Below, in pieces: positions 35,425-56,595 of a stretch of DNA of 64,000 nucleotides. Position numbers and translations under genes: made by a program. The DNA lies in NCBI GenBank assembly GCA_021774575.1, contig JAJFIX010000014.1, forward strand, positions 1 to 64,000, read 5' to 3'. Position 1 is the first letter of the stretch. The number at the start of each line of letters is the position of its first letter. The notes beneath the pieces were generated by a model. The model worked only from the letters and a program-made list of their open reading frames with translations. It was not told where the DNA came from and made no database searches. The stretch is from Alphaproteobacteria bacterium. Lineage in GTDB: Bacteria; Pseudomonadota; Alphaproteobacteria; UBA6615.

Positions 35425-37191
35425 CTAAATTTGGATGGCGTGTTGCGTCGAATTGGCGGTCATTTCAACCAAGACGGTTTTGCGGTCGGTAAGCCGATAA
35501 ACCTTATCGGCCATTTTCGTCCAAGGGTCCCGGTGGCTGATTGCCAGAACGGTGATTTCACCCGATAGCCGGGCGATGTTTTCGCATATATCTCGTTCCG
35601 TCGCTGGGTCGAGGGCACTGGTGACTTCGTCCATAATCAGCAATTTGGGTTGGCGCAGCAGTGCCCGGGCCAGGGCAATGCGCTGGCGCTGGCCGCCGGA
35701 CAATTTTGTTCCCTTGTCACCGACCTGGGTCTGCAAGCCTTCCGGTTGGGCCGCCACAAATTCCCAGGCACCGGCAGCTACCAAAGCGGCGCGCACCTCC
35801 GCCTCGCCATAATCGCGATTGCCTAGGGTGATATTGGCCAGGATCGTATCGTGGAGCAGGATCAGCTCCTGGGGCACATAGCCGACCAATTGGCGCCATT
35901 GGTCGAGGTCGATCGCACGCAACGGCGTGTCGTCGACCACGACCCTGCCGCTATCGGGTTGGTAGAGGCCGATTATCAGGTCGGTTATCGTCGTCTTGCC
36001 AGCGCCCGATGGGCCGGTAATGACCGTGATGCCACCCACCGGAATATCCATTGAGGCGCCGGTCAGTATCTTATTTTCCCCGTGCGAAAAATCTACATTC
36101 TCAAGATGGATCGCATCTCCAAAAATGGGCGTCCCCGTCCCCGGGTTTGGTTCGCGGGCGGCAATCGCCTCGGCGATCAGCTCCTCGACGGCGCGCACCG
36201 GGGGTTCCAGCATGACCGCTTTCTGGTATTGATTTTGGATCCGTCCGACACTGCGGATCGAGGCAAACAGCACCAGCCCGACAACAATAAATTCTGAAAT
36301 CGGCACGGCGAAATATATGTGGGCGATATAAAACCCGCCGGCAATGGCCGCGACCGCCAGAAATTCTTCTAGATATCTCAGGGCGAATCGACCGAGCACT
36401 AGCCGCCGCAGCGCCTTATTGAGTTGAGTGTTGCGTTTTTCAACCAAGTTGGTGAATAGCCGCTGCACGGCCATCGCTTTTAACGGCTTAATATTGTTGA
36501 GAATATCACTGACATAGACCACCAGTTGCGAGGTGCGCATGGTTTGTTGGCGCCCGGCCTTTCGCACCATGGTGACAAGAAAACTCAATGCGAGCGCTAT
36601 CGTTGCGCCGACTGCGATGGAGATCAGCGCAAGTTTCCAGGAAACAAGGAGCGCCACCGTGATATAGGCCACCGTCTCGATCGCGCTTTTCACCAGCACG
36701 GCGATGGCGGTATAGGTGTTGGTGGCGCGGGTTGCATCGACGCTGATTGAATTTGCCACCCGCCCCAGCGCCAAATTGGTGAAATAGTCCCACCGGACAT
36801 GCAGCAATTCGCGGATGAGCTGGCGGCGCATTCTGGTGGCGACCCGGGCCCCGGCATACCCCATATAGGTCAGGGCAATAACCGATAGAACCGCTTTTAA
36901 AAACAGACCGCCGACGCCAAAAGCCAGCAAAGTGCCGATGGTCGGTGTCAGCCCGAAAATGGCCAGCCCATCGGTGATCATGACATGGAGGGGCGAAGAC
37001 CCGCCGGCACCACCCTCCGACGTCATGGTTAAGAGGGGCAGCATTGTCGATAGGCCGACCCCTTCAAACAGACCCGCCAGTAACAACAGCAGCAAAACCG
37101 CCCACGGGTTGGCGGCCTTAGACTGGAAAAAGATGCGGAGCAGCCCGGTCATTGGATCCGACGTGTAATGAGTATAGGTGCCGTATACCAT
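35425..37191 (-). CDS. ABC exporter, fused permease and ATPase (MsbA-like)
   Basis: This 588-residue half-transporter has six TM helices in residues ~20-310 and a C-terminal ATPase domain. The ATPase domain has Walker A GPSGAGKTT, Q-loop GYVPQELILLHDTI, signature LSGGQRQRIALARALL, Walker B LLIMDEVTSALD and H-loop AISHRD. Type I exporters of this form move lipids, glycolipid precursors or drugs out of the cell. The start may instead be the ATG at 37152, which gives MTGLLRIFF. It is in one minus-strand run with ELM1 and surface-carbohydrate genes, so a glycan or lipid-linked substrate is more likely than a drug. Confidence 0.9.
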   Translation of the reverse strand: MVYGTYTHYTSDPMTGLLRIFFQSKAANPWAVLLLLLLAGLFEGVGLSTMLPLLTMTSEGGAGGSSPLHVMITDGLAIFGLTPTIGTLLAFGVGGLFLKAVLSVIALTYMGYAGARVATRMRRQLIRELLHVRWDYFTNLALGRVANSISVDATRATNTYTAIAVLVKSAIETVAYITVALLVSWKLALISIAVGATIALALSFLVTMVRKAGRQQTMRTSQLVVYVSDILNNIKPLKAMAVQRLFTNLVEKRNTQLNKALRRLVLGRFALRYLEEFLAVAAIAGGFYIAHIYFAVPISEFIVVGLVLFASIRSVGRIQNQYQKAVMLEPPVRAVEELIAEAIAAREPNPGTGTPIFGDAIHLENVDFSHGENKILTGASMDIPVGGITVITGPSGAGKTTITDLIIGLYQPDSGRVVVDDTPLRAIDLDQWRQLVGYVPQELILLHDTILANITLGNRDYGEAEVRAALVAAGAWEFVAAQPEGLQTQVGDKGTKLSGGQRQRIALARALLRQPKLLIMDEVTSALDPATERDICENIARLSGEITVLAISHRDPWTKMADKVYRLTDRKTVLVEMTANSTQHAIQI

Positions 37192-37213: not shown

Positions 37214-38308
37214 TCAATGGGTCACCAGGTGGATCACCAGATTACGCACCCTATCGACGATATTGGCGAGCGCTTCTCCGTCATCACCCGATGAAGAGCA
37301 GGAGATTTCGCACGTCGAGTCGAACCAGCAGGCGCGTCCATCGGCGATGGCGGCATCGTGAACCCGCGAGACAAGACGCGGTGGCGAAAAGAGCCCCCGG
37401 TTCGCCAAGCCTCGTAATCCATGCCCGACCATGCCCGGTTTATCGACCGACCGGGAAAACGCAAAGGCGGCACGGGTCATCGCGTTACTTTTAGACGGTG
37501 GTCGCCAAATTGCCACCGGGGCACCCGTACCGCAGGCTTCTGCGGCCAGAGAAATGCTGTCGCCGGTAACAATAAAATTATCCGCGAGGGTCAAAATTGC
37601 TTTATGCGGGTTTTCGCCCTGGGGGCTCCATTGATGAAAGTGATGTTCTGCCTCGATCTCCCGGTCGAGGGCGGTGGCGAAATCCGCCGGTGTACGCGGC
37701 CCGGTACTGACCAACAGACTGCCGCCGAATTTTCGAACCCATTGATTAATCTCGTTTGCCAGGCGTTGGGCGTCGGTGGGGGAAAAGGGGTACGGCCATG
37801 TTGCCCCGCCGACCAGCAGGCCGGTCCAGGGCCGGGGTAGCTGGCGAAATTTTTGCGCCCACTCTGCTGTCATCGTGTCTGTGGCGGAATTTTGTGCGAT
37901 CGGTGGACCGGTCAGTGGAAAGGTCAGCCGGGCCAGGTTTGGCCGGGCCGGTAGGCCGTATTGCGCCGTCGTGACAACCAAATCAAACAGCTTTAAATCG
38001 GCACGGGGGCGACCGATTTGCACGAGCTTGGTCTTGCCGCCGGACTGTTTTTTTATCCAGCGGGCTGGCGCAACGGATCGGCGACCCGCGGCGATGATCA
38101 AGTCGGGCCACGGCGGGGTTAGCGATGTCCGGTATTCGGGGTGAACCGAGGTCAGGCTCGGGCCGAGCACTCTATTTGGGAGGGCAAAAAGGCGGTTATA
38201 GGCGAGTTGTTTTACCAGATAGGGCCAGCCGAGACGTTGGGCGAGCGCGTCGACCTGTCTATTGTCGCCGACCCGTTCGCCAAGAATTGCCCAAACGATT
38301 GGAGACAT
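37214..38308 (-). CDS. ELM1/DUF1022 family protein
   Basis: This 364-residue protein opens VWAILGERVGDNRQVDALAQRLGWP, the hallmark of the family that includes plant mitochondrial fission factor ELM1. Later blocks are PDLIIAAGRRSVAPARWIKKQSGGKTKLVQIGRPR, FDLVVTTAQYGLP, LLVGGATWPY, LLVSTGPRTP and NFIVTGDSISLAAEACGTGAPVAIW. This is a GT-B-like layout resembling a nucleotide-sugar glycosyltransferase. The bacterial function is not established. Position beside surface-carbohydrate and sphingolipid genes favours a glycosyltransferase role. It lies 22 bases upstream of the ABC exporter gene. Confidence 0.88.
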   Translation of the reverse strand: MSPIVWAILGERVGDNRQVDALAQRLGWPYLVKQLAYNRLFALPNRVLGPSLTSVHPEYRTSLTPPWPDLIIAAGRRSVAPARWIKKQSGGKTKLVQIGRPRADLKLFDLVVTTAQYGLPARPNLARLTFPLTGPPIAQNSATDTMTAEWAQKFRQLPRPWTGLLVGGATWPYPFSPTDAQRLANEINQWVRKFGGSLLVSTGPRTPADFATALDREIEAEHHFHQWSPQGENPHKAILTLADNFIVTGDSISLAAEACGTGAPVAIWRPPSKSNAMTRAAFAFSRSVDKPGMVGHGLRGLANRGLFSPPRLVSRVHDAAIADGRACWFDSTCEISCSSSGDDGEALANIVDRVRNLVIHLVTH

Positions 38309-41950: not shown

Positions 41951-43093
41951 GTGAGCGGTGGACCGCTTGATATTTTGCCGGTCAATGACCGCACGGACCT
42001 AGATGCGTTTATCCGGTTGCCGTGGACGATTTACCAAGACGATCCAAGTTGGATACCGCCCTTGGTTTTTGAGCGCAAAGAGCATCTCGACCCGGCGAAA
42101 AACCCCTATTTTCAGCATGCGGAAGTTGGGCTCTGGCTGGCCCGACGGAACGGACGGCCGGTAGGACGTATCTCGGCACAAATAGATCGTGCCTACCTCG
42201 AGCGCTATGATGACGCCACCGGCCATTTCGGCATGTTGGAGGCCGAAAATGATGGGGCTGTGTTTTCGGGGCTATTTGCGGCGGCGACGGAATGGTTACG
42301 GGCGCGGGGTATGACCCGGGCGGTGGGACCATTTAATCTGTCGATCAATGAGGAATCGGGACTGCTCATTGACGGTTTTGATACTCCACCGTCGATCATG
42401 ATGGGACATGCAAAACCCTATTATGCGCCGAGGGTCGAGGCCATGGGTTTTGCCAAGGTAAAGAATCTTCTGTGTTACCATTACACAATAGATGACCCTA
42501 TTCCGGCCCAGGTTGGCCGGTTTGTCGCCAGAGCTATGGGTGATCAAGGACTGGTCGTGCGCCACGTTAAACTGGCTGATTTATCCAACGAACTGGCGCG
42601 CATCCTTGATATCTTTAATGATGCTTGGTCGCAAAACTGGGGGTTTGTGCCGATGTCCGACGCCGAAATTAGCCATATGGCGAAGGCTCTGCGGCCGATC
42701 TTGCGACCTCAGTCGGCGGTGATTGCCGAACTTAACGGCGCGCCGGTGGCGATGGCGGTGAGCCTGCCAAATATCAACGAGGCGATCGCCGATCTAAACG
42801 GTCGGATGCTGCCCTTCGGCTGGTTAAAATTATTATGGCGGATCAAGGTGAAAACACCGAAATCCCTTCGCATTCCCTTGATGGGCGTGCGCCGAGCCTA
42901 CCAGGGTACGCCCTTAGGCGCTGGTCTCGCATTCACCGTGATCAAAACTCTACGCGATGCGCAGGAGGGACTTGGGGTTGAGACCGGTGAACTTTCCTGG
43001 ATCCTCGATGACAATTTGGCGATGCAGCGAATGATCGAGCAACTCGGGGCCCGAGTTTATAAAACCTATCGCATATATGAGCGCGCCCTGTGA
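41951..43093 (+). CDS. GNAT-fold acyltransferase, candidate bacterial ceramide synthase (bCerS-like)
   Basis: This 380-residue protein belongs to a GNAT-like family often misannotated as dATP pyrophosphohydrolase. Visible landmarks are FIRLPWTIYQDDPSWIPPL, NPYFQHAEVGLWLARRNGRPVGRISAQID, GPFNLSINEESGLLIDGFDTPPSIMMGHAKPYY and GELSWILDDNLAMQRMIEQLGARVYKTYRIYE. In Caulobacter a GNAT-family protein near spt acylates 3-ketosphinganine to make ceramide. Here the family, length and presence in an spt/cerR locus suggest the same role, which is inference. It starts with GTG and its stop overlaps the start of the next gene, a nucleotidyltransferase. The gene is about 10 kb from spt, on the opposite strand. 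Confidence 0.68.
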   Translation: MSGGPLDILPVNDRTDLDAFIRLPWTIYQDDPSWIPPLVFERKEHLDPAKNPYFQHAEVGLWLARRNGRPVGRISAQIDRAYLERYDDATGHFGMLEAENDGAVFSGLFAAATEWLRARGMTRAVGPFNLSINEESGLLIDGFDTPPSIMMGHAKPYYAPRVEAMGFAKVKNLLCYHYTIDDPIPAQVGRFVARAMGDQGLVVRHVKLADLSNELARILDIFNDAWSQNWGFVPMSDAEISHMAKALRPILRPQSAVIAELNGAPVAMAVSLPNINEAIADLNGRMLPFGWLKLLWRIKVKTPKSLRIPLMGVRRAYQGTPLGAGLAFTVIKTLRDAQEGLGVETGELSWILDDNLAMQRMIEQLGARVYKTYRIYERAL

Positions 43094-43887
43094 CCGACCC
43101 CGTTCCCATGCCGGCTATCGTTTTGGCCGCTGACCGGGGGCCGAGCGACCCGGTGGCGCGTGCCGCTGGGGTGGCGTCTAAATGCCTGGCTCCGGTAGTA
43201 GGTATTGCGATGATCGAGCGCGTGGTTACGACGCTGGCAGCCAGTCCTTGGGTTGGTCGGATTATCGTTGTGCAAAATGCCCGCGACGACTTGATGCAAT
43301 GTGAAGTATTGGCGCGCCTCGCAAAAGAGGGTCGCTTGTTCACTGTCGCTGCCGAGCCGACACCGAGCCTGAGTGCCCTTCGCGGGATTGACATGTGTGC
43401 CGATGAATTCCCGATTTTGATAACGACCGCCGATCATCCGCTGCTGACCGGCGAAGTGATTGAATATTTCAGCGCACATGCGTTCAGATCAGGGGCCGAT
43501 ATCGCGGCTGGTGTGGTGGCTGCCAGCCTTATTCGAAACCGGTTTCCCGACGCTGTTAGGACATATTTAAACTTTCGCGATGGCGGGTATTCCGGGGCAA
43601 ATCTTTTTGCCTTGCTCGGCCCGGACGGAAAAAAAGCGGTCGCCTTTTGGCGTCGGGTTGAAACGCAACGCAAGCGTCCCTGGCGCATTGCAAAGGTATT
43701 TGGGTGGCGGCTGTTGGCAGGATATTTGACGCGCACTTGGACGCTCGATGGTGCTCTAGAGCGGGCGTCGGCCCGGCTGGGTGTCAAGGCATATGGGGTG
43801 AAAATTCCCTATGCCGAAGCTGCGGTGGATGTCGATAAGCCAGCGGATCTAGTCTTGGCCGAACGGATATTAGGCGCGTCCGGATAA
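43090..43887 (+). CDS. MobA-like nucleotidyltransferase family protein
   Basis: This 265-residue protein has an NTP_transf_3-type N-terminal domain: AIVLAADRGP at the nucleotide loop, ASKCLAPVVGIAMIERVV, an acidic metal site LITTADHPLLTG, and VDVDKPADLVLAE at the end, as in MobA and IspD relatives. The Gly-rich loop is degenerate (ADRGPSDPVAR), so the nucleotide may differ from the usual one. It starts at a GTG overlapping the stop of the candidate ceramide synthase by four bases. That translational coupling ties it to sphingolipid synthesis, perhaps making a CDP- or other activated head group. Its product is unknown. Confidence 0.78.
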   Translation: MTDPVPMPAIVLAADRGPSDPVARAAGVASKCLAPVVGIAMIERVVTTLAASPWVGRIIVVQNARDDLMQCEVLARLAKEGRLFTVAAEPTPSLSALRGIDMCADEFPILITTADHPLLTGEVIEYFSAHAFRSGADIAAGVVAASLIRNRFPDAVRTYLNFRDGGYSGANLFALLGPDGKKAVAFWRRVETQRKRPWRIAKVFGWRLLAGYLTRTWTLDGALERASARLGVKAYGVKIPYAEAAVDVDKPADLVLAERILGASG

Positions 43888-44655
43888 AGTCAGCATACTG
43901 GGGTTGGCGCTGGGATCGGCACTGCGCCACCGGTCTACCATTTCCTTGGCGATCGCGAGGTCGTGGGGATAATCAATTTCACACCATTCCATGCCTTCGA
44001 TGGATAGGGTCGAAACTTCGGTCTCGGTGGCAAGGGTGGCGATCACCGAAAGATACCAGCGCTTCAGAGCGGCCGGGGCCAGCATTGCGCGCTCAAGAGC
44101 AGAGACGAGTTTACCGGGGCCGTCATCGCGAAACAGCAGCATCCCTATAGATTCACCATTGACCGTATCGAGGGCGAGTTTTTTGCCGATATCGACCAGC
44201 CGCCGACCATCGAGCACGACCTTCATATCGTCTTCGTCATAACGTTCTTTCACGTCGATAGTGACGGTTATCGGCGCACGAGTACTGGCCAGTAAAGTTT
44301 CGAGCACCGGTATACTGAATAATGTGTCGCTGTTGAGCAGGAGGAAATCTCCAACCATTTCCGGTCGCGCCATCCAGACGCTGACCAGGTTATCGGTCAG
44401 GGCGTGAAAGGGATTATAGAGGCTGGTGATCCGGCAACCGGGATGACGCGCCTGGGCGGCAGCGACAGCCGAGCGGACGGCATCCATATTGAAGCCGCCA
44501 ACAAACACAATCTCCTCGACGCCGCAGGCGGCCAGATGGTCGACTTGCCAGTCGAATTGCGACTTGCCGCCGATGTCGAGCAGTGCTTTCGGCAGGCTTT
44601 CGGTCAGGGGCAGCAGGCGCTTACCTTGACCGGCGCCGATAATTAGTGCTTTCAA
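43870..44655 (-). CDS. Sugar/choline-phosphate nucleotidyltransferase-like protein
   Basis: This 261-residue nucleotidyltransferase opens MKALIIGAGQGKRLLPLTESLPKALLDIGGKS, the full NTP-binding signature. LYNPFHALTDNLVSVWMARPEM and LLLNSDTLF carry the metal Asp, and VTIDVKERYDEDDMKVVLDG follows. The sequence resembles choline-phosphate or phosphoglycerol-type cytidylyltransferases of the LicC group more than large hexose-1-phosphate enzymes. It is convergent with and overlaps the MobA-like gene by 18 bases. It probably activates an alcohol phosphate or sugar phosphate for the CDP-alcohol transferase or the glycan pathway. The exact substrate cannot be read. Confidence 0.82.
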   Translation of the reverse strand: MKALIIGAGQGKRLLPLTESLPKALLDIGGKSQFDWQVDHLAACGVEEIVFVGGFNMDAVRSAVAAAQARHPGCRITSLYNPFHALTDNLVSVWMARPEMVGDFLLLNSDTLFSIPVLETLLASTRAPITVTIDVKERYDEDDMKVVLDGRRLVDIGKKLALDTVNGESIGMLLFRDDGPGKLVSALERAMLAPAALKRWYLSVIATLATETEVSTLSIEGMEWCEIDYPHDLAIAKEMVDRWRSADPSANPSMLTLSGRA

Positions 44656-44756: not shown

Positions 44757-45653
44757 ATGTTTACGCTAGCCCATTTCTCCGACCCTCATCTAGGTCCGCT
44801 GCCCAAAATTCGCCCGGTCGAATTATTTGGCAAGCGGTTTTTTGGTTACCTTTCTTGGACGCGCCGCCGCCGGGCCATTCATCGGCCTGAGGTTTTGGAT
44901 GTATTGGGCCGTGACCTGGCAGATATTGGTCCCGACCATATTGCGATCACCGGCGATCTCACCAATATTTCACTTCCCGGCGAATTTGGGCAGGTCGCGA
45001 GCTGGCTGCGAACCATTGCCAGGCCGGACCAGCTGACAGTGGTTCCAGGAAATCACGACGCTTATGTCGCTCAAAACTGGGATCAATCGCTTGGCCAATG
45101 GGCCGAATTTATGTCTGGTGATGATGGAAGATGCTCGCATCCGTTTATCCGCCGACGGGGTTCCGTGGCGATCATCGGCCTCAGCAGTGGCGTGCCGACA
45201 CCGATTGGCTTTGCGTCCGGGAAACTGGGGCGCGACCAACTCGCGCGGTTGGAAATGAACTTAAAGGCGTTGGGCGCCGATGGGGCGTTTCGGATCATAC
45301 TCCTGCACCATCCGCCGCAATTGGGGGCAACCGCATGGCGCAAGCGCCTCGTCGATGCGCCGGAATTTCGTGAAATTATCAACCGGGCCGGGGCGGAATT
45401 GATCCTGCATGGCCATAATCACGCCTTTGTCTCGGCGCGGCTAGCAGCCGGGCACGGGGAAGTTCGTGTGTTCGGCGTGCCCTCAGCATCGGCGGCGCAG
45501 GCCGGGCATAAACCGCAGGCTCATTATTGCCTCTATGGAATTGAGCAAACCGGCGACGGGTGGGATGTCGCCGTGCGAACAAGGGGCTTGGATTTGCAAC
45601 AGGGTATTTTTGCCGACATCTCTACCCAAGAATTCTCAGTCGGTCATGGATAG
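44757..45653 (+). CDS. Calcineurin-like metallophosphoesterase
   Basis: This 298-residue protein has all five metal-binding blocks of the family: FSDPHLG, ITGDLTN, VVPGNHD, IILLHHPP and LHGHNHAFV. It has no signal peptide, so it acts in the cytoplasm or at the inner face of the membrane. UDP-2,3-diacylglucosamine hydrolases and phospholipid-head-group phosphodiesterases share this fold. Within this locus a lipid or CDP-linked phosphodiester is a possible substrate, but no assignment can be made. It overlaps the converging DUF2141 gene by 10 bases. Confidence 0.85.
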   Translation: MFTLAHFSDPHLGPLPKIRPVELFGKRFFGYLSWTRRRRAIHRPEVLDVLGRDLADIGPDHIAITGDLTNISLPGEFGQVASWLRTIARPDQLTVVPGNHDAYVAQNWDQSLGQWAEFMSGDDGRCSHPFIRRRGSVAIIGLSSGVPTPIGFASGKLGRDQLARLEMNLKALGADGAFRIILLHHPPQLGATAWRKRLVDAPEFREIINRAGAELILHGHNHAFVSARLAAGHGEVRVFGVPSASAAQAGHKPQAHYCLYGIEQTGDGWDVAVRTRGLDLQQGIFADISTQEFSVGHG

Positions 45654-46292: not shown

Positions 46293-46754
46293 ATGGTGAC
46301 AAAATCAAGCGCTCCTAATCCCACTGCGGCCAAATTCGGCTATCCCGGCACTGTTATTTGCGAATTCGACCATTGGGTCGTCCTGTTGCGACCGCAGCAA
46401 TGCACTCTCGGTGCCCTGGTTCTTGTCTGCACCGATGAGGCGGCTGCATTCTCCGACATTTCATCTCAAGCATTTGCCGAATTCGGAACGGTGATCGTGG
46501 CTATCGAGCGGGGGTTAACCGCCTTTCGCCCCTATCGAAAAATCAACTATCTGATGCTGATGATGAAGGATAAGGATGTCCATTTCCACGTCTTGCCTCG
46601 ATACGACCAAGACCAGGAATTTGAGGGCAGAACCTTTTCCGATGCTGGCTGGCCTGGTCCGCCGGATTTGACGGCGGGACCATTGCTCGAAGACGAGTTG
46701 CGGGCGCAATTGGTGGCAGGTGTGCGCCGCAATTGGGACGCTGCGACCGGGTGA
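46293..46754 (+). CDS. HIT family protein
   Basis: This 153-residue protein of the histidine triad superfamily has an N-terminal strand VICEFDHWVVLLRPQQCTLGALVLVC, the helix with AFAEFGTVIVAIERGLTAFRPYRKINYLMLMMKD, and the catalytic triad region DVHFHVLPRYD. The first triad His is shifted compared with classical HIT proteins (HxHxHxx appears as VHFHVLP). HIT enzymes cleave nucleotide phosphoanhydrides or phosphoramidates. It lies just before the LptF-like gene in the same direction, so a role in recycling a nucleotide product of head-group chemistry is possible but unproven. Confidence 0.78.
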   Translation: MVTKSSAPNPTAAKFGYPGTVICEFDHWVVLLRPQQCTLGALVLVCTDEAAAFSDISSQAFAEFGTVIVAIERGLTAFRPYRKINYLMLMMKDKDVHFHVLPRYDQDQEFEGRTFSDAGWPGPPDLTAGPLLEDELRAQLVAGVRRNWDAATG

Positions 46755-46785
46755 CCGGTTGCCCTCGCGTATTAATGGCAAATCG

Positions 46786-48009
46786 ATGAACACGGTCGGC
46801 ACCTATGTATTACGCCAATCGCTGAAACCCTTCTTGTTGATCATTGGGGTTGCCTTGGCCCTCTTATTGGTCGAGCGGGCCTTGCGATTGCTCGACCAAG
46901 TTTTGGGGTTTGGCGGGTCACCGGTGCTATTGCTGGAAATGCTGGCCTTTCTCATCCCCCATTATATGGCGCTGGCTTTGCCGGCGGGTTTTTACCTCGG
47001 GGTTCTGCTCACCTTTAGTGCGATGAATGATCGCCATGAGTTGGATGCGCTGGGCTCGGCAGGGGTTGGCTTGCTGCAACTCGTCCGACCGCTGCTGTTA
47101 TTTGGTCTCGCACTGGGCCTGTTTGCCGCCCTGAACGCCAATTATGCCCAACCCTATTCACGCTATATTTATCGGTCGCTGATCCATTTTGTCGCTGAGA
47201 GTTCGATCAGCGGCTATCTGCGCGAGCGGACTGCGGTAGAGGTCGGGCGTTACACGTTTCTGGCGGATCGCATTCGCCCGACCAGCCGGCGCTATGACAA
47301 GATGTTTATTTACGAAGAAACAAGTGACGGACGAACGATCGCCACGACCGCCGAGCGCGCTTCTTTGTCGCCGATCGAAGATGGGCGGCGAATGACCCTG
47401 GTGCTCGAAAACGGCGTGCGCATGTCCAGTGCGCCGGTCTTAGCGGATGCTGATGGGTCGTCGTCGGGCGGAACCGGTCCCGACGAGTTGGTGTTTGAGC
47501 GGATCGAGTTTCCAATCGCTATCGACGACCCCGGGGTTTTTCGGCGGCGTGGGCAGGATGAACGCGAATTAACCATTTTCGAACTCTGGCTAATGCGCGA
47601 TACGCCGCCGCCTGGCACCGAGACAGCGGAAATGGTGGCGGAACTAAACGATCGGCTTGTACGTGCCATATCGATTGTCTTTTTGCCCTTTATGGCGATC
47701 GGACTGGCGATTGGACCGCGACGGTCCCACCGCGCTTACAATATCGCAACGGCCTTTGTGCTCATCATCATCTACAATGAGGCCTTGAGTATTGGGAAAT
47801 TTGCCACCGAAGAAGCCAAATTGACACCCTTCATCAATCAATGGCTGCCCTTGCTCGTGTTTATCGGCCTCAGCCTATATGTTTTCTTGCGGGCTATGGC
47901 CAGGGTGCCGAGCGGCCAGTCACTACCGGCGCCCATCCTTTGGGCTGAGGCTGGGGTGCGCCTCGTCTGGCGGATGATCTGGGCCAAGCTGAGCCGCAGG
48001 ACCGGGTAA
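46786..48009 (+). CDS. LptF/LptG-family (YjgP/YjgQ) permease, possible sphingolipid exporter subunit
   Basis: This 407-residue inner-membrane protein has three N-terminal TM helices (TYVLRQSLKPFLLIIGVALALLLVERAL; LAFLIPHYMALALPAGFYLGVLLTFSAM; LLLFGLALGLFAALNANY), a periplasmic beta-jellyroll in residues ~130-285, and three C-terminal helices. This is the YjgP/YjgQ layout. LptF and LptG couple to LptB to extract lipopolysaccharide. Here the gene lies eight bases before a second family member that is fused to a lipid head-group transferase, inside a sphingolipid locus. A dedicated lipid-export role is therefore likelier than canonical LPS export, as inference. The start is placed at 46786. Confidence 0.88.
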   Translation: MNTVGTYVLRQSLKPFLLIIGVALALLLVERALRLLDQVLGFGGSPVLLLEMLAFLIPHYMALALPAGFYLGVLLTFSAMNDRHELDALGSAGVGLLQLVRPLLLFGLALGLFAALNANYAQPYSRYIYRSLIHFVAESSISGYLRERTAVEVGRYTFLADRIRPTSRRYDKMFIYEETSDGRTIATTAERASLSPIEDGRRMTLVLENGVRMSSAPVLADADGSSSGGTGPDELVFERIEFPIAIDDPGVFRRRGQDERELTIFELWLMRDTPPPGTETAEMVAELNDRLVRAISIVFLPFMAIGLAIGPRRSHRAYNIATAFVLIIIYNEALSIGKFATEEAKLTPFINQWLPLLVFIGLSLYVFLRAMARVPSGQSLPAPILWAEAGVRLVWRMIWAKLSRRTG

Positions 48010-48017
48010 TCCGAAAT

Positions 48018-50336
48018 ATGGGTATCCTTGGAAAATATTTGACCCGATTGATCTTGGTTCGGTTTGCCGTTGCCTTGACCGGCCTGACGGTTTTTCTCCT
48101 GAGCCTCGATCTCATGGTCAATGGCGAGCGCGTACTTGATGACAGCAATGGCGAATTGACAGCTCTCTTTAGATACTCGGTACTACGGCTGCCCGAGCTC
48201 GCCTCATCGCTGATCAAATTTGCTAGCTTGATTGCCGGATTGCTGACTTTTACCGCGCTGATGCGTCGCAATGAAGTCGCGCCGATCTGGAGCATGGGGG
48301 TTTCCCAGTTCGGTGTGATGCTGAAATTGGTGCCGGTCGCGATTGTTCTTGGAGGTTTTCAGTTTTTTGTCGATGACAGGCTGGTTCCGATTGCTATTGA
48401 GGGGCTCGGTGATTGGAATTTCACCCAAGATAGTGTTGCGCTGCCCGGCCGGGCAGCTTGGTTTCATACCGGAAACAGTATCGTCGCCATCCCGGTCGAA
48501 AGTCTTGATCAGGATGTTTTCAGCAACATCAAAATTTTTGAAATTGACCAAACTGGCAACCTCACCGGGCGGATTGACGCCGCCGAGGCGCGGTTCGACG
48601 GGGAAGAAAGTTGGACCCTCACCAATGCGACGCAGCGTATATTGGGACAAGATCTTGCCCAGACCCATGACGTTTTAGTTTGGCGCTCGGATCTGGATCC
48701 GAGCGAAATAAAGCGACTTACTTTGCACCCAAAGAGGCTGGCAATAGGCGATTTATCCGCCCTCGCCAGCGGGGCGCAACGGGGATACTGGGTGCCGCAT
48801 TATTACGCTACCTGGATGCAGGCGCGGCTTGCTCTGGCATTGACGCCAGCCTTGATGCTGTTTCTAATCGTCGCCTTGGCGCGACGGTTCCAGCGCACCG
48901 GGCATATTGAGTTCTTGTTCTTGGGTGGGCTTGGGACCGGGTTCTGCTATTTCATTTTAAGCGGTATTGGGGTCGCCATGGGCGAGGTGGGGTTGCTGCC
49001 TTTTTTGCTGGCGGGATGGGGGCCCATTGCTGCCTTCGCCGTGATTATTGCCGCAATCGTGTTGTGGCGCGAAGTCTATGAGATCCGTTTGGTCGATGCC
49101 CATGGCCGACATTATGAGAGTGATGGTGGTGAAGCCGTCGCGAGCAAGGATGGAGAAATGACCAAGACCAAGGCCGCCATCGAGGAAGTGGCGCTACTTA
49201 TTGTTGGCGAGTGTGACGCAAAAATCTGGGGGCGACGCCCCCAAGACCGGCTAATACGCGGATTTGCGCGGGCCGGGGTCAACCGCGTTTTGGCCGAGGA
49301 AGACGCGGTGGGCGTTGTCGATCATGTTGTTTTGGTGCGGGCCGACATTGTTCTCGACGCACCTGTCGTCGCAGCCCTTGCGCGGAGCCGGGGTGTGGTC
49401 TTGCTAAGTGGGGAGGGGAGTGCGGCTATTCCAATAGCGGCAAATGTATCCGGGACGCAACTTTTTGCGACCCTCAAGCTGCTGCACTCTGGTAAAATGA
49501 AAAATGTACATGAAGGGGTAAAACTCGTATCGGTTGAAGAAATCGGCTCCACCTATTGGCCGGCATTGCGCAAGCGCGAGGTGCCCTATGCGACGGTAAT
49601 TAATCGGCTTGACTTGGCGCCATTGGAATGGCGAATGTTTATGGGAACCTATAAAGGGGCGACCGATTTCGTCACCAAATGGGTGTGGCCGCGACCCGCA
49701 TATTACGTCACGAAACTCTGTGTGCGGGCGGGACTAACGCCAAATATGGTAACATTTGCTAGCCTTTTATTGGTTTTTGCCACCCTCTATTGGTTCTACG
49801 TCGGGGCTTGGATCTTGGGATTGGCCGCCGCGTGGGGCATGACGTTTCTCGATACCGTCGACGGGAAATTGGCGCGGATAACTCTTAACTCAAGCCCGAT
49901 GGGTAATATCTTTGATCATTCAATTGACCTCATCCATCCGCCCTTTTGGTATATCGCCTGGGGTTTGGGCCTGGCCGGAACCGCGCATCCTTTGGGCAAT
50001 GCCACATTAACGGCTGCACTCGTGATAATTGTTGCCGGGTATATTTTGCAACGCCTGATCGAAGGTGCGTCGATTTATTATTTCAAGATTGAAATACATA
50101 TCTGGCGCCCTGTTGATACGCTGTTTCGGCAAGTTACAGCGCGGCGCAATCCAAATTTGGCGTTGATGACAATATGCGCTCTCGCCTGGCGTCCGGATAT
50201 CGGGCTGCTGGCGGTCGCCGCCTGGACGGCGATCTGCTTGGGCCTACATCTCCTTCAACTCGTTCAGGCCTACTTGGTTTGGCGACGAGACGGAGTGCTT
50301 CATTCCTGGCTGACCCAAAATACCCCGGCGCCATGA
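48018..50336 (+). CDS. Fusion: LptG-family permease + nucleotidyltransferase-like region + CDP-alcohol phosphatidyltransferase
   Basis: The single open frame has 772 residues. Residues 1-360 are an LptF/LptG-type permease: TM helices at ~12-32, 62-82, 100-118, a periplasmic domain to ~260, then TMs to ~350. Residues ~385-530 form a soluble domain (VALLIVGECDAKIWGRRPQDRLIRGFARAG) like the nucleotidyltransferase-like domains that precede some inositol-phosphate transferases. Residues ~535-772 are a CDP-alcohol phosphatidyltransferase with a complete DxxDGxxARx8GxxxDxxxD motif (Asp612, Asp615, Arg620, Gly629, Asp633, Asp637). The parts are normally separate genes. An ATG at 49158 with its own ribosome site could also give a separate transferase. 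It probably transfers a head group to a ceramide or related lipid and may couple to export. Confidence 0.88.
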   Translation: MGILGKYLTRLILVRFAVALTGLTVFLLSLDLMVNGERVLDDSNGELTALFRYSVLRLPELASSLIKFASLIAGLLTFTALMRRNEVAPIWSMGVSQFGVMLKLVPVAIVLGGFQFFVDDRLVPIAIEGLGDWNFTQDSVALPGRAAWFHTGNSIVAIPVESLDQDVFSNIKIFEIDQTGNLTGRIDAAEARFDGEESWTLTNATQRILGQDLAQTHDVLVWRSDLDPSEIKRLTLHPKRLAIGDLSALASGAQRGYWVPHYYATWMQARLALALTPALMLFLIVALARRFQRTGHIEFLFLGGLGTGFCYFILSGIGVAMGEVGLLPFLLAGWGPIAAFAVIIAAIVLWREVYEIRLVDAHGRHYESDGGEAVASKDGEMTKTKAAIEEVALLIVGECDAKIWGRRPQDRLIRGFARAGVNRVLAEEDAVGVVDHVVLVRADIVLDAPVVAALARSRGVVLLSGEGSAAIPIAANVSGTQLFATLKLLHSGKMKNVHEGVKLVSVEEIGSTYWPALRKREVPYATVINRLDLAPLEWRMFMGTYKGATDFVTKWVWPRPAYYVTKLCVRAGLTPNMVTFASLLLVFATLYWFYVGAWILGLAAAWGMTFLDTVDGKLARITLNSSPMGNIFDHSIDLIHPPFWYIAWGLGLAGTAHPLGNATLTAALVIIVAGYILQRLIEGASIYYFKIEIHIWRPVDTLFRQVTARRNPNLALMTICALAWRPDIGLLAVAAWTAICLGLHLLQLVQAYLVWRRDGVLHSWLTQNTPAP
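49146..49160 (+). promoter_or_regulatory. Internal ribosome site and ATG inside the LptG-transferase fusion
   Basis: AAGGA (49146-49150) lies 7 nt before an in-frame ATG at 49158 (codon 381), just where the soluble domain starts. A second product of 392 residues containing only the nucleotidyltransferase-like and CDP-alcohol transferase parts could be translated. No stop codon separates it from the permease part. Confidence 0.5.
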
Positions 50337-51304
50337 CCCAGCGTCGTAAAGTCGGCGTCATCGTCAATCCGCTGAGCCACAAAAATAAATCTAGTATTTC
50401 CGCACTTGTTGCGGTTCTGGGGCAGCAAGAAGATGTTCCTCATGTGATCTTAAGGGATGTCGCAACGATCCCCGACGATTTGCGAAAATTCTCGAAACAG
50501 GGAGTGGAGGTTGTTGCCGTCGCCGGGGGAGATGGCACGGTGCAATTGGTCCTGAACGGTATTTTGCATGATCGTTGCTTTGAGACCCAGCCGCTGATAG
50601 CAATTTTGCCGCGCGGGCGAACCAATATGACAGCAGCCGATATCGGGGTGAAGGGGCGCGGTGCCCGGGGGTTGGATCGGCTGCTTGTCGCGGCCGGGCG
50701 GACAAATTTCGATCAATATGTGGTCGAGCGGCGGATTTTGTGTGTCGAAAATGTAAAAGACCTGCCCCCCCAATTTGGCATGTTTTTTGGCGGCGCGGGG
50801 ATCTGGCGCGCTGTGGATTATACCCGCCGTAAAGTTCATCCGCTTGCCATGGGGGCGGACGCGACATCGGCGCTGGCATTTGCCCGATTACTCATTCATT
50901 TGCTGCGACTTGGTAAGGGTGAAGACGATTTGTTTCGCGGTGATGATATCGAGATTTGTGTTGATGGTGAAACTGTCGACAGAGGGACCAGCCTGGTCGT
51001 GCTTGCGACCACACTCGATAAGCTCTTGCTCGGTAGCCGGCCGTTCTGGGGGATCGGCAAGGGCAATTTCGCGTTTACCCAGTTTGCGCATCCGGCATAC
51101 CGTCTATGGCGTTACACGTGGCGTTTGTTATTTGGCGCCGTCGACCGATCCCTGCCGGATCCGCATTATTACAGCACCGGTGCCGACCGGGTTGAGCTAA
51201 AAATGAGCTGCCCCTTTACCTTGGACGGCGCCGATCTTGAGCCAGATGAAACCAATTCGATGATATTGACGGCGGATCGAAAAATCGGTTTCGTGCGCCT
51301 ATGA
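50333..51304 (+). CDS. Diacylglycerol/ceramide-kinase-like lipid kinase
   Basis: This 323-residue DAGK_cat-fold protein opens KVGVIVNPLSHKNKS, with the nucleotide motif VVAVAGGDGTVQLVLNGIL (GGDGT at residues 65-69) and the ILPRGRTNMTAADIG segment that replaces the usual PxGTGND. It should phosphorylate a lipid hydroxyl. In Caulobacter a lipid kinase encoded just upstream of spt, CpgB, is the ceramide kinase used for anionic sphingolipids; the same relative position suggests that role here. The ATG overlaps the stop of the fusion gene by four bases, and its own stop overlaps the next start, so the three are translationally coupled. Confidence 0.78.
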   Translation: MTQRRKVGVIVNPLSHKNKSSISALVAVLGQQEDVPHVILRDVATIPDDLRKFSKQGVEVVAVAGGDGTVQLVLNGILHDRCFETQPLIAILPRGRTNMTAADIGVKGRGARGLDRLLVAAGRTNFDQYVVERRILCVENVKDLPPQFGMFFGGAGIWRAVDYTRRKVHPLAMGADATSALAFARLLIHLLRLGKGEDDLFRGDDIEICVDGETVDRGTSLVVLATTLDKLLLGSRPFWGIGKGNFAFTQFAHPAYRLWRYTWRLLFGAVDRSLPDPHYYSTGADRVELKMSCPFTLDGADLEPDETNSMILTADRKIGFVRL

Positions 51305-52182
51305 CCAAGCTGGGCGATTTATTGACCGAAGAAGCGCTGCGCGACGTGCGCCCGTCTATTCTGGCTGTTGGTGAGGCGGCGCGGGCGCGCCACCAAAATG
51401 TTGTCGCAGTTCTCTTTTACGGATCTTGCCTGCGCGACGGCGACGATGACGGCAAGATCGCCGATCTATATCTAATTGTCGGCAAGTACCGCCACGCCCA
51501 CAAAGGGTTCTTGGCAGCTTCTTTTAATTGGCTGTTGCCGCCGAATGTAGGATATGTCGAGACCTCTTATGACGGGCGGATAATCCGGGCAAAATATGCG
51601 GTGATTTCTCTGCGCGATTTTGAACGCGCCACTTCGGGGCGCTGGTTCCATTCTTATATTTGGGCGCGTTTTGCCCAGCCTTGCCGGCTGACCTATTGGC
51701 GCGAGGATAAAGATAAAAACCGAGTTCTTTCTGCCCTGGTCGAGGCGACCAGGACAATGGCGCGGGAAATTAACCCCTTACTGCCGAGCCAAGCGACGGC
51801 AGAGACGTTCTGGGTGAGGGGGTTTGGCGAAACCTACCGGGCGGAGTTGCGGAGCGAAGGTCCGGGTCGAGCCGCAGAAATATTTGCTGCCGACCGGGTG
51901 CGCTATGAAGCGATATGGGACGGTTTGAAAATGCCGCCTACCGGAGGGCGACTTTGGGCCCGATGCAAGTGGGCTGTGCGCCGGCCTTGGGGCAAGGTCC
52001 TTTCGGTTGCCCGATTGGTCAAAGCCGCCTTTACCTTTGAAGATGGCGGAACCTACATATTGTGGAAAATAGAGCGCCATTCGGGAGTCGGCGTCACGCC
52101 AACGCCTTGGCAGCGTCGCCACCCTGTTCTCGCGTCAACGGTTCTGGCCTGGCGGCTCTATCGCCGGGGCGCGTTTAAATGA
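51301..52182 (+). CDS. Nucleotidyltransferase-fold protein (Tam41-like)
   Basis: This 293-residue protein has an N-terminal nucleotidyltransferase strand: VVAVLFYGSCLRDGDDDG, then KIADLYLIVG. The Gly-Ser and Asp (DLYLIV) residues match the pattern GSxxR...DLDLIV of this fold, and ISLRDFERATSGRWFHSYIWARFAQPCRL is reminiscent of Tam41-type phosphatidate cytidylyltransferases. The C-terminus is basic and Trp-rich, possibly membrane-associated. It overlaps the lipid-kinase stop by four bases. A role in CDP-activation of a ceramide-phosphate or phosphatidate fits the operon (lipid kinase, then cytidylyltransferase, then CDP-alcohol transferase). The similarity is weak, so the function is inference. 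Confidence 0.6.
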   Translation: MTKLGDLLTEEALRDVRPSILAVGEAARARHQNVVAVLFYGSCLRDGDDDGKIADLYLIVGKYRHAHKGFLAASFNWLLPPNVGYVETSYDGRIIRAKYAVISLRDFERATSGRWFHSYIWARFAQPCRLTYWREDKDKNRVLSALVEATRTMAREINPLLPSQATAETFWVRGFGETYRAELRSEGPGRAAEIFAADRVRYEAIWDGLKMPPTGGRLWARCKWAVRRPWGKVLSVARLVKAAFTFEDGGTYILWKIERHSGVGVTPTPWQRRHPVLASTVLAWRLYRRGAFK

Positions 52183-52193
52183 ATATGGCCGAC

Positions 52194-53408
52194 CTATAGC
52201 CCGACGCGCTCGGGCTGTTTTTTGAGTGCGGCGCGTGCCGCAATATTGGCAAACACGCCGGCAATTGTCTTAATTTCATTCGGGCTGTGGGCCGCAGAAA
52301 GGCTAGCGCGGAGCAGGCAGGCGCCATTTGGCGTCCCCGGCGGCAGCGCCAAATTGACATAGATCCCGGCTTTCAATAATTCGTTCCAGCAATATATCGC
52401 TGTCTCTTCATTTGGCATGTTGACCGCGAGAATGGGGCTTACCGGCGCACAGAGCTGGTAACCGATATCGGTTAGGCGGCGATAAAGATCGCGGGCATTA
52501 TCCCATAATTTTTCGCGTAAATTGGGGCGGGCCCGAATTTGTTTTATCGCTTCTATCACCGCCTCGACATTCGATGGTGAGGCCGAGGCCGTGTACATAT
52601 AGGGTCGGCTAGTATAGCGCAGAATATCAAATTTTGGGTGATTGGACGCCCCGAATCCGCCGACAGAGCCGAGGCTTTTAGAAAACGTACCTACGACATA
52701 ATCGACATCATCTTCGATTCCCAGTTCTGCGACCAATCCCTGGCCGCGATCACCAAAGACGCCTAGGGAGTGGGCTTCATCGACCAGCAGACTAACCCCG
52801 TGTCGGCGCGTGACTTCGGCAAATTCATCCAATGGCGCCTGATCGCCGAGCATCGAGTATATACTTTCCACCACGACCAGTTTGTTAACTTGCTTTTCCG
52901 CCAGGCGATGAAGTCGTTTGTCCAGGTCGGCGGGTGAATTATGGCGGAACCGGATCATTGTCGCTCCGCTGAGCCGACAGCCGTCGTAAATGCTGGCATG
53001 GGAATCGGCGTCGAGCAGGATGATGTCTTTGGACCCGGCGAGACCCGCCAATATCCCTAAATTTGCCTGAAACCCGGTTGGGAAGACGATTGCCGACCGG
53101 CGCCCGAGGAAATCGGCGATTTCTTTTTCAAGGGCGATATGACCGGGATAGGTCCCATTGGCGATGCGCGACCCCGTTGTCGCGGTGCCCTGGGTTTTGA
53201 GGGCCCTGACCGCTGCCGCGATAACCGTCGGGTCAAAGGTCAGTCCGAGATAGTTATTGGTGCCCGCCAAAATCGTCTCTCGTCCATCGATTATTGCCCG
53301 GGTCGGCGATAGAATTTTTTCCACACGCATGTGGAATGGGTCGACACCAAGATCTTCCAGCTGGCCGTATCGGTCAGAGAAGGGGGCGTATTTATCAAAA
53401 AGATCCAT
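52194..53408 (-). CDS. spt: Serine palmitoyltransferase (alpha-oxoamine synthase)
   Basis: This is a PLP enzyme of 404 residues with the alpha-oxoamine synthase motifs: FPTGFQANLG, LLDADSHASIYDG (stacking His137), ESIYSMLGDQAPL, LLVDEAHSLGVFGDRGQG (residues 209-225) and the Schiff-base lysine in GTFSKSLGSVGG (Lys244). It condenses serine with an acyl thioester to give 3-ketosphinganine, the committed step of sphingolipid synthesis. An acyl carrier protein gene lies 18 bases upstream in the same operon, and a ceramide-reductase-like gene beyond it, which separates it from 8-amino-7-oxononanoate synthase and glycine C-acetyltransferase. The stop is 11 bases from the converging + strand operon. 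Confidence 0.92.
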   Translation of the reverse strand: MDLFDKYAPFSDRYGQLEDLGVDPFHMRVEKILSPTRAIIDGRETILAGTNNYLGLTFDPTVIAAAVRALKTQGTATTGSRIANGTYPGHIALEKEIADFLGRRSAIVFPTGFQANLGILAGLAGSKDIILLDADSHASIYDGCRLSGATMIRFRHNSPADLDKRLHRLAEKQVNKLVVVESIYSMLGDQAPLDEFAEVTRRHGVSLLVDEAHSLGVFGDRGQGLVAELGIEDDVDYVVGTFSKSLGSVGGFGASNHPKFDILRYTSRPYMYTASASPSNVEAVIEAIKQIRARPNLREKLWDNARDLYRRLTDIGYQLCAPVSPILAVNMPNEETAIYCWNELLKAGIYVNLALPPGTPNGACLLRASLSAAHSPNEIKTIAGVFANIAARAALKKQPERVGL

Positions 53409-53785: not shown

Positions 53786-54751
53786 TTAGATCCAGCCCAT
53801 TTTGATATACCATTCGACCGTTTCTGAAAATCCCTCGGCGATAAAAATTTTCGGTTTCCAGTCGATTTTTCCTCCCAGCATATTTTTTCGGCAAACCCAG
53901 TCGGTGTAGATTAGCTCGTTAATTTTGTCTTGAGTTAAAAATGGTTGCTTGCCAGTTGCCCGGGAGAGAGCTGTGGCGGCTGTGGCGACCGCCCGCAATA
54001 TGGCTGTTGGTGGCGAAATGACCCTGATATTGCGTGAAAATTGCTGTCGTGCCTGGTCGACGACACTGCTCCAGCTATGTCCGCCGAGGTGACCGTCATC
54101 AAGTTCAAAGATCTGTCCCGGCGCTATTTTCGCCTCAAGCAGGGCGAGCAAACCAGCGGCGAGATCGGTGACATGGATCAGTGAAAATTTGCCTTTTGGC
54201 GAAAAATTTGCCGCCCAGCCGTGCCGAAACATTTTAAAAAGCATCAAAGTGCCCGTGTCGCCGGGACCATAGACCGCTGGCGGTCGGATAATTTGCCAGT
54301 CTAGGTCCGGCAAAATGTCGCGCATCAGGTCTTCGCCACGATGCTTGCTGGCGCCATAAGCTGAAACTTCGGGGGACCGCGCGGCAAGGGAGGAGATCAG
54401 GATAAATTTTGCCGAGGGCGATTTGCTCGCGACGGCGCGTGCTAAGGCGGCAGTTCCAAGTGCGTTGACCGCGTGAAATGTCTGTTTTGATGCTGCGATA
54501 GTGGTTCCTGCACAATGGATGACAGCGTCGGCCCCTTCGACCAAATCCGTGAGTGCCGATTCGTCCGCCAAATGGCCCAACACGGGATGAACCAGGGTTC
54601 TTGGCTGCAATGCGTTAGCACGCCGCGTGAGCGCTTTCACGCGCCAGCCAGCCGTTGTTAGGTGATCAATGAGGGCTCCACCAATAAAGCCGGTGCCGCC
54701 GGTCAGGGCGATTGTGCCGCGACTGACGTCCTTACCCGCATTTAGGGTCAT
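53786..54751 (-). CDS. cerR: NAD-dependent epimerase/dehydratase-like ceramide reductase (CerR-like)
   Basis: This 321-residue extended SDR has the GGTGFIGGALIDHL nucleotide motif (residues 18-31), HCAGTT, ISSLAARSPEVSAYGASKHRGEDLM with the active-site Tyr132 and Lys136, and IIRPPAVYGPGDTG. Annotated relatives are called NAD-dependent epimerases, but in Caulobacter the homologue next to spt and acpR is the ceramide reductase that reduces the 3-keto group after acylation. The operon position here is the same. It lies 98 bases upstream of acpR and 53 downstream of the ligase gene. Confidence 0.85.
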   Translation of the reverse strand: MTLNAGKDVSRGTIALTGGTGFIGGALIDHLTTAGWRVKALTRRANALQPRTLVHPVLGHLADESALTDLVEGADAVIHCAGTTIAASKQTFHAVNALGTAALARAVASKSPSAKFILISSLAARSPEVSAYGASKHRGEDLMRDILPDLDWQIIRPPAVYGPGDTGTLMLFKMFRHGWAANFSPKGKFSLIHVTDLAAGLLALLEAKIAPGQIFELDDGHLGGHSWSSVVDQARQQFSRNIRVISPPTAILRAVATAATALSRATGKQPFLTQDKINELIYTDWVCRKNMLGGKIDWKPKIFIAEGFSETVEWYIKMGWI

Positions 54752-54804: not shown

Positions 54805-56595
54805 TCAGCCTGCCATTGCGGCGAGCGGTTCTTCATTCGGTTGAGAGTTGAACGAGGTTTGGGGCTGGGCTAGGTCTACCAACTCGTCGTTGAGATAGAG
54901 GCTTTTCACCGCGGCGCGGCTCAGCTTTCCAGATGACGTGAACGGCAGAGTGCCCGGAGACACCAACAAAATCTCGCAATCGGCGCCACTCGCCTTTTTA
55001 ACCTTGGCCATAATCGTTTTGCGTAGTTCGTCCCGTTCTATACTGGCGCTGACCCTGCAATGGACAACCAGCACCATACGCTCGCCTCCACCGGCCAGGG
55101 AGACGGAAAAACATGCCACGTCGCTACTGCGGATGCGGTCGATTTTCTCCACAGCCATTTCAATATCCTGGGGCCAAATATTACGACCGTTGAGAATAAT
55201 GAGGTCCTTCTGACGTCCGGTTATGACCAGCTGGCCGTCCGACATATAGCCTAGATCGCCGGTATCCATCCATCCATCGGCTTCCATAACGGAGGCAGTA
55301 CCCTCGGGGTCGCGAAAATATCCGTCCATCAGGCTCGGTCCGCTGACCACGATGCGGCCAACCTGGTCTTCTGGCAGAGGGCTGCCGAGATCGTCGCGGA
55401 TATCGATTTTATGACCCGGGATCGGACCGCCGCATTTTATGAATGGGCGGTAATCATCGCCCGGCGTGTGACCGTTGACTTTGGCGCGAACGATTTTGCG
55501 GCTATTTGCCAGTTGTTCCCGGTCGACATATTCGACTGTAAATCCACTATCAACCGGTCCAAAGGTCGTGCCCAGAGTTGTTTCTGCTTGGCCGTAGCAA
55601 GGCATGAAGGCGTTTTTCGAAAACCCGACTTGGCCAAAAATTTTGGCGAATTCATTCAGCGTATTTGGATAAATCATCTCGCCGCCGATCCCAGCCACAC
55701 GCCAATTAGAGAGGTCGAGTGAGCGGGCTTTTTCGCTCAGGCCGCGACGGGCGCATAAATCATATCCAAAATTGGGGCTAAACGACACGGTCGCGCCATG
55801 CTCGGAAATGATTTGCAGCCATACCATTGGCCGTCGGGCAAAACTCTGGGTCGCCATATAATCGATAGAAATCTGGCCCATCATCGGCGCCAGGCAGAAA
55901 CCAACCAATCCCATATCGTGATAGAGAGGTAACCAGGAGGCGGCACGATCGGCCTCCGTTGCCGCCAAACCGTTGCGCAAAATGCCCCTTGTATTGCTGG
56001 TAATCGCTCGTTGCGAAATGACGACGCCACGGGGGCTGGACGTGCTGCCAGACGAAAACTGGATATAGCTGAGCTCATTCTTCTGGAACGGGCGCAAATT
56101 GCCGCCGGTGGTGGGCAGGGCAAAATAATTGGCCGGTGTGCCAATCATCTCAAGCTGAGGTGCCGCTTCTCGGACATATTCGATCAATTCAGGTGAACCA
56201 ACCGCATAGTTTGCCCCGGCTTTGCCAATCAGATTGGCTAAGTTGCGTACATATTCTTCATGGCCACTCAGATGGATGCTGAGTGGCAGCGCCACCGGCA
56301 GCATGCCAGCATACTGGCAGGCAAAAAAGAAATACATGAAATCCGGGGTCGTCTCGGCCACAATCGCCATTCGGGATCCACGTTCAAAACCCGCTCGATC
56401 AAAGGCCTGTGCGAGATCGATTGCCTTCTCGCGTATCTGCGCATAGCCGACAGCCTGCTCGAATGCCCCGCGAGACGAAAAGAAATTGCATCCCGTCGAA
56501 CCGCGCGCCGCATAGTCGAGGCCTTCGGTCAGGGTTTCGAAGTCCGCTCTAACGAACGCCAAATTTGAATTGGTGGTTATTGTTGGACTAGTCAC
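54805..56595 (-). CDS. aasR: Fatty-acyl-AMP/acyl-ACP ligase (AasR-like)
   Basis: This 596-residue adenylate-forming enzyme has the AMP-binding loop SYIQFSSGSTSSPRGVVISQRA (residues ~177-200), LPLYHDMGLVGF (the FAAL-type His-Asp-Met-Gly signature), YGQAETTLGTTFGP, and the C-terminal TGDLGYMSDGQLVITGRQKDLIILNGRN hinge and lid. The HDMGL block and lack of a CoA-binding Lys region mark it as a fatty-acyl-AMP ligase type. It probably loads a fatty acid onto the linked ACP. It is the first gene of the minus-strand aasR-cerR-acpR-spt operon. Confidence 0.87.
   Translation of the reverse strand: MTSPTITTNSNLAFVRADFETLTEGLDYAARGSTGCNFFSSRGAFEQAVGYAQIREKAIDLAQAFDRAGFERGSRMAIVAETTPDFMYFFFACQYAGMLPVALPLSIHLSGHEEYVRNLANLIGKAGANYAVGSPELIEYVREAAPQLEMIGTPANYFALPTTGGNLRPFQKNELSYIQFSSGSTSSPRGVVISQRAITSNTRGILRNGLAATEADRAASWLPLYHDMGLVGFCLAPMMGQISIDYMATQSFARRPMVWLQIISEHGATVSFSPNFGYDLCARRGLSEKARSLDLSNWRVAGIGGEMIYPNTLNEFAKIFGQVGFSKNAFMPCYGQAETTLGTTFGPVDSGFTVEYVDREQLANSRKIVRAKVNGHTPGDDYRPFIKCGGPIPGHKIDIRDDLGSPLPEDQVGRIVVSGPSLMDGYFRDPEGTASVMEADGWMDTGDLGYMSDGQLVITGRQKDLIILNGRNIWPQDIEMAVEKIDRIRSSDVACFSVSLAGGGERMVLVVHCRVSASIERDELRKTIMAKVKKASGADCEILLVSPGTLPFTSSGKLSRAAVKSLYLNDELVDLAQPQTSFNSQPNEEPLAAMAG

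Follow-up and report, generated by a model that had tools for sequence, protein, structure and literature searches.

The closest described counterpart of the locus that we analyzed is a gene cluster for phosphosphingolipids in Caulobacter crescentus. The region CC_1168-CC_1152 contains second copies of LptC, LptF, and LptG, six ceramide phosphoglycerate genes, and a candidate flippase (PMC11324152). In this pathway, the ceramide kinase is CpgB. CDP-glycerate comes from CpgD, and the proposed role of CpgA is to convert ceramide phosphoglycerate (CPG) to ceramide-diphosphoglycerate (CPG2) with this CDP-glycerate (PMC12275187). The published evidence comprises genetics for CpgA-D, including genetic evidence that the conversion of CPG to CPG2 requires CpgA, and biochemistry for CpgB and CpgD (PMC11324152, PMC12275187). 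Transport of phosphosphingolipids by LptG2 is a proposal only (PMC11324152). The other relevant systems are the LPS exporter LptB2FG, which draws lipid from the external leaflet and does not flip it (PMC5548808), and the CDP-alcohol transferases of the CpgA type, which are homodimers (PMC4634129).

The window that we analyzed is a stretch of 64,000 nucleotides from one contig of an alphaproteobacterial draft genome (46 contigs). It contains a gene at 48018-50336 (+) that begins with ATG, has 772 codons and no internal stops, and would encode a protein of about 85 kDa. A first-pass annotation, made from the letters alone, had described this gene as one uninterrupted frame that joins an LptG-type permease with six transmembrane segments, a nucleotidyltransferase-like soluble domain, and a CDP-alcohol transferase with its catalytic aspartates intact. 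In the assembly, all of these features are present. Residues 6-347 match Pfam LptF_LptG (E = 1.8e-48), and residues 574-703 match CDP-OH_P_transf (E = 6.3e-9). The best NCBIfam models for the protein are LptG and the archaetidylinositol-phosphate or phosphatidylinositol-phosphate synthases (the latter far under the cut-off). A structural model of the full-length protein (pLDDT 84, pTM 0.56) matches both the LptG fold and the AF2299 fold within a single chain. Residues 366-387 of this model have pLDDT below 50, which suggests two folded units joined by a loose or disordered linker.

The first-pass annotation did not recognize that the gene sits in a sphingolipid cluster, which marks the two halves as the LptG2 and the CpgA of a CPG2 pathway. 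Immediately upstream is the partner permease LptF2 (46720-48009, +; LptF_LptG, E = 1.8e-59), which has the same position in relatives and whose coding start may lie 3' of the listed GTG. Immediately downstream are a CpgB-like ceramide or lipid kinase (50333-51304, +; DAGK_cat, E = 2.7e-13) and a CpgC-like protein (51301-52182, +), which we named by its position and conservation only. The ATG of the kinase overlaps the stop of the fused gene as ATGA, and the stop of the kinase overlaps the next start in the same way, so the operon is tight. On the other strand, a serine palmitoyltransferase (Spt; 52194-53408, -) scores 606.9 bits against the equivalog model NF047599 (cut-off 500). It is followed by an epimerase-type NAD(P)-dependent reductase (53786-54751, -; Epimerase, E = 4.2e-22), which is CerR-like by domain and order, and an AMP-binding ligase (54805-56595, -; AMP-binding, E = 1.1e-51), which is AasR-like on the same grounds.

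On the other side of the fused gene lie a GNAT acyltransferase (41951-43093, +; Acetyltransf_1, E = 5.9e-6) and a MobA-like NTP transferase (43090-43887, +; NTP_transf_3, E = 2.9e-12), which by domain and order resemble the ceramide synthase CC_1154 and CC_1153, respectively. Next come a CpgD-like cytidylyltransferase (43870-44655, -; matched by NTP_transf_3, NTP_transferase, and an NCBIfam model of the inositol-1-phosphate cytidylyltransferase type) and a conserved neighbor with the Metallophos domain, a metallophosphoesterase that is CC_1158-like by domain and position (44757-45653, +). A DUF2141 protein (at 45644, -) and a HIT-like protein (46293-46754, +), with a weak match to Pfam HIT that is below the cut-off and a conserved position, complete this side. 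By gene content, the cluster matches the published CPG2 cluster of Caulobacter.

Several features of the surroundings are worth recording. An MsbA-like ABC exporter (35425-37191, -) lies beside an ELM1-type protein (37214-38308, -) and is a possible candidate for a lipid flippase. The CpgC-like protein matches nothing in Pfam, NCBIfam, or the solved structures in PDB. It is strongly conserved, with a YGSCLR motif and D55, and is a putative enzyme, of a fold without a known match, for a CPG-forming step. We found no CpgA-like or LptG2-like match in 23 other genomes of the same family. We rejected misbinning of the contig, as its GC content and tetranucleotide composition fit the rest of the genome. 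A cluster that is absent from those 23 genomes and yet is matched in composition would have been acquired long ago or else lost repeatedly.

We considered whether the N-terminal half (residues 1 to about 357; 48018-49088, +) might be an ordinary LptG for LPS export, unrelated to sphingolipids, that became fused to an enzyme of glycerophospholipid synthesis. It does belong to the right permease family: it scores 165.8 bits against PF03739 (cut-off 27.9) and covers positions 1-350 of the 353 in that profile. Its predicted structure resembles solved LptG structures, with six long helices, the third and fourth of which are separated by a beta-rich domain. Also, glycerophospholipids are the usual products of CDP-alcohol transferases. 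However, the half scores just 178.3 bits against TIGR04408, which describes LptG proper from the LPS exporter and has an equivalog cut-off of 240. The same genome encodes a separate LptF/LptG pair (LptG1, on contig C45), and that LptG groups with the LptGs of its family, while the copy in the window falls inside the LptG2 clade of the tree (sets of 7 and of 30 rows, with support of 100/100 and 100/99). Its neighbors in the tree are the LptG2 of locus L032 and the copies from Pelagibius and Kiloniellaceae, and its neighbors on the chromosome are LptF2 and the sphingolipid genes. The residues that bind LPS also differ. In LptG, K34 and R136 touch the phosphate of lipid A, and K34E or R136E is lethal, while single changes to alanine are tolerated (PMC6744409, PMC5548808). 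None of the 27 aligned LptG2 proteins has lysine at the position of K34 (the window copy has V34), and in a profile alignment the position of R136 in the window copy is N134. The glutamate that couples LptG to LptB is kept in 26 of these 27 proteins. The absence of K34 and R136 from the window's LptG2 fits a cargo other than LPS, as judged from the alignments. Given all this, we consider an ordinary LPS-export LptG to be very improbable.

The C-terminal half (residues 381-772; 49158-50336, +) has a cytidylyltransferase-like domain followed by a CDP-alcohol phosphotransferase domain. The full signature DxxDGxxAR(x8)GxxxDxxxD is found at residues 612-637 (49851-49928), which places this half in the CDP-alcohol phosphotransferase family (PF01066), and its eight defining residues are invariant in an alignment of 29 sequences. 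An AlphaFold2 model of the C-terminal 392 residues (pLDDT 91.5) was compared to known structures with Foldseek. Over nearly its whole length, it matched AF2299, the PIP synthases that were crystallized with the AF2299 domain, and IPCT-DIPPS, with TM-scores (by query) of up to 0.65. The similarity of residues 381-550 to nucleotidyltransferases is in the fold only: no NTP-transferase profile from Pfam or NCBIfam matches them, unlike the separate protein at 43870-44655, which is matched by several. The N-domain thus lacks the profile match expected of an active cytidylyltransferase of the bifunctional IPCT-DIPPS type, and therefore it is probably not one. We describe this half as CpgA-like, after the Caulobacter protein CC_1159 / CCNA_01217, on the basis of its domain make-up and its neighbors.

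Our preferred explanation for the single frame, which we consider fairly probable, is a lineage-specific fusion of two adjoining genes of a conserved phosphosphingolipid operon, so that LptG2-CpgA would tether CPG2 synthesis to export. The genes are neighbors elsewhere. Using the C-terminal half as the query, we scanned 84,980 species genomes and found 33 loci, as well as matches in 24 of 385 genomes from the class. In about 30 loci, the order LptF2-LptG2-CpgA-kinase-CpgC-like, on one strand, is conserved. There are 37 loci besides the window in which LptG2 lies directly upstream of a CDP-alcohol transferase (some might be the same species from two collections, and seven carry a more distant transferase), and none of them has the fusion. 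In 7 of the 37, the two genes are in the same register with a stop between them. More broadly, we found no other instance of this fusion among 60 relatives, 385 genomes from the class, 398 genomes from the phylum, and the 33 loci from the large scan. Nor did we find a description of any LptG fusion in the open literature that we searched, so the claim that no such single chain had been described agrees with our searches. The first-pass annotation had also said that its reading would fail if the close homologues were all separate genes. In all 37 comparable loci they are separate, so the fusion does not generalize, and the continuous frame in this assembly stands. The fusion is probably real, and so far it is a variant, seen in one genome, of a sphingolipid pathway that is already known.

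A few of the other loci bear on how such arrangements vary. In L013 and L031, the long open frames beside LptG are due to upstream read-through in the same register, and we set them aside as they are not domain fusions. In six loci (L089-L094, from G185, G360, G284, G208, G187, and G060), a second and distant CDP-alcohol transferase (29-43% identity) is directly 3' of LptG2, and the CpgA-like gene is elsewhere in the cluster. This second transferase could be the enzyme that adds the first phosphoglycerate. In L094 and L104 it is in the frame of LptG2, one TGA away; in L104 (also G060), only TGA-GCC precedes the next ATG, so little would be needed to fuse such genes. In L109 (G181), the lipid kinase directly follows LptG2, so CpgA can be missing from this spot.

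That all 37 comparable loci are unfused, and that the fusion is known from a single draft genome, might instead indicate an error in the assembly or consensus, with a true stop or frameshift near 49088-49158 and two separate genes as in the relatives. A frame change of one base would end LptG2 at the TGA at 49159, giving an ATGA overlap with cpgA like those at the next two joints. The evidence against an error comes from the linker itself, codons 358-380 (49089-49157, +). These codons are not present in the LptG2 of relatives, which ends a few residues past position 352, and they are coding-like in the fused frame. Using the window's genes as the calibration set, the codon score of the linker is 8.4 in the fused frame, versus 1.5 in the alternative frame and -25.5 in the third. 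This exceeds the scores of 84% of coding segments and of all 922 off-frame segments without a stop, while 6% of the intergenic segments without a stop have equally high scores. GC3 in the linker (0.43) is below that of either half (0.62 and 0.59). There are no homopolymers in 49075-49157. Because the linker is coding-like in the fused frame and homopolymers are lacking, an indel error is unlikely.

A second alternative accepts the assembly but not the importance of the long protein: once the intervening stop had been lost, most CpgA would still start at codon 381 of the same message, with the long form as a minor or neutral side product. Just upstream of that codon is AAGGA, 7 nt before the ATG (the site spans 49146-49160, +), which is likely a retained ribosome-binding site and start for cpgA. 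At -7.1 kcal/mol, it is the strongest Shine-Dalgarno-like site in the fused ORF, and it is stronger than the sites at 83% of 30 gene starts in the window and 94% of 226 internal methionine codons. In the alignment of 29 sequences, the CpgA proteins of relatives start at the equivalent position, with a similar head length, and the operon's other joints are ATGA overlaps, which would also suit two products. With a good ribosome-binding site still in place at codon 381, some CpgA may be produced as a free protein as well, which qualifies the earlier claim of a one-chain protein. As for the long form being a mere by-product, the linker is coding-like when read in the fused frame. Ribosomes that complete LptG2 meet no stop ahead of CpgA, so the long form must arise wherever LptG2 is made. 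We consider this alternative to be rather doubtful. Separately, the intergenic stretches between lptG2 and cpgA in four of the nearest relatives (L033, L034, L039, and L064) share a TTGACA-like element that could be a promoter for cpgA; it is missing from the joint in the window.

If the fusion of the two operon genes is real, it is topologically possible. The C-terminus of LptG faces the cytoplasm. The N-terminal, soluble domain of CpgA is on the same side, and because both are cytosolic, the two parts can work in one chain. We propose that LptG2 would be half of an LptB2F2G2-type exporter with a presumed role in moving ceramide phosphoglycerates to the outer membrane. Its flexible cytoplasmic linker would join it to CpgA, the proposed adder of the second phosphoglycerate (from CDP-glycerate, CPG to CPG2). 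In this scheme, CpgB would phosphorylate ceramide, CpgC would act toward CPG by some route, CpgD would supply CDP-glycerate, and the CpgA part would finish CPG2 in the inner leaflet, from which a flippase would move it across the membrane. LptB2F2G2 would then extract it from the outer leaflet. Since head-group addition is cytosolic and LptB2FG extracts from the outer leaflet, a flippase must act between the two. The first-pass annotation had placed head-group addition next to the entry point of the exporter. This idea is partly supported: the fusion would tether the two steps, and we set aside a direct hand-off from transferase to exporter, as the transferase works on one face of the membrane and the exporter on the other (PMC5548808, PMC4634129). 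The fusion would therefore co-localize synthesis and export without passing the lipid along directly. The frame, the domains, the LptG2 clade, and the gene order are direct observations; we infer production of the fused protein, activity in both of its halves, and CPG2 as the cargo of the exporter.

By analogy to the known homodimers, a CpgA dimer could bridge two exporter complexes, or a fused CpgA could pair with a free one. A bolder version is that the protein is a single-chain synthase-exporter, in which two LptB2F2G2 complexes, linked through the CpgA dimer, would coordinate the last head-group step with the export of CPG2. We raise this idea tentatively, as a less likely possibility; if true, it would be the first lipid-exporting ABC permease to share a covalent chain with the enzyme that completes the lipid it exports. 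Even a one-off fusion has some value as a "Rosetta stone" hint that LptF2G2 exports CPG2. Together with the gene order conserved in about 30 loci, it gives comparative support for a role of the second LptF/G pair in the CPG2 pathway, and the loss of the LPS-phosphate-binding residues from LptG2 points the same way. The CPG2 pathway itself is unchanged by the fusion.

Compared to the known systems, the locus is most like the Caulobacter region CC_1168-CC_1152, with which it shares Spt, a lipid kinase, a CDP-alcohol transferase, a cytidylyltransferase, a phosphoesterase, and a second LptF and LptG (PMC11324152, PMC12275187). But the Caulobacter lptG2 (CC_1155) and cpgA (CC_1159) are two genes that do not lie next to each other, and its cluster includes LptC2, while we found no second LptC in the window's genome. 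The operons of Pelagibius, Kiloniellaceae, and Hyphomicrobiales (L032-L064) have the same LptF2-LptG2-CpgA-CpgB-CpgC-like order and strand, and the nearest of them are about 40-44% identical to the window in LptG2 and 51-58% in CpgA, but their lptG2 and cpgA are always two genes. Archaeoglobus AF2299 and IPCT-DIPPS resemble the C-terminal half, with the same fold and a CDP-alcohol phosphotransferase domain that comes after a cytidylyltransferase-like N-domain. They differ in that they have no LptG, in their low identity (12-15% in structural alignments), and in that the window's N-domain lacks an NTP-transferase profile match. Finally, the LptG of LptB2FG shares with the N-terminal half its fold of six long helices and a beta-rich periplasmic domain, as well as the glutamate that couples it to LptB, but K34 and R136 are not conserved in the window's LptG2, which has an enzyme added at its C-terminus.
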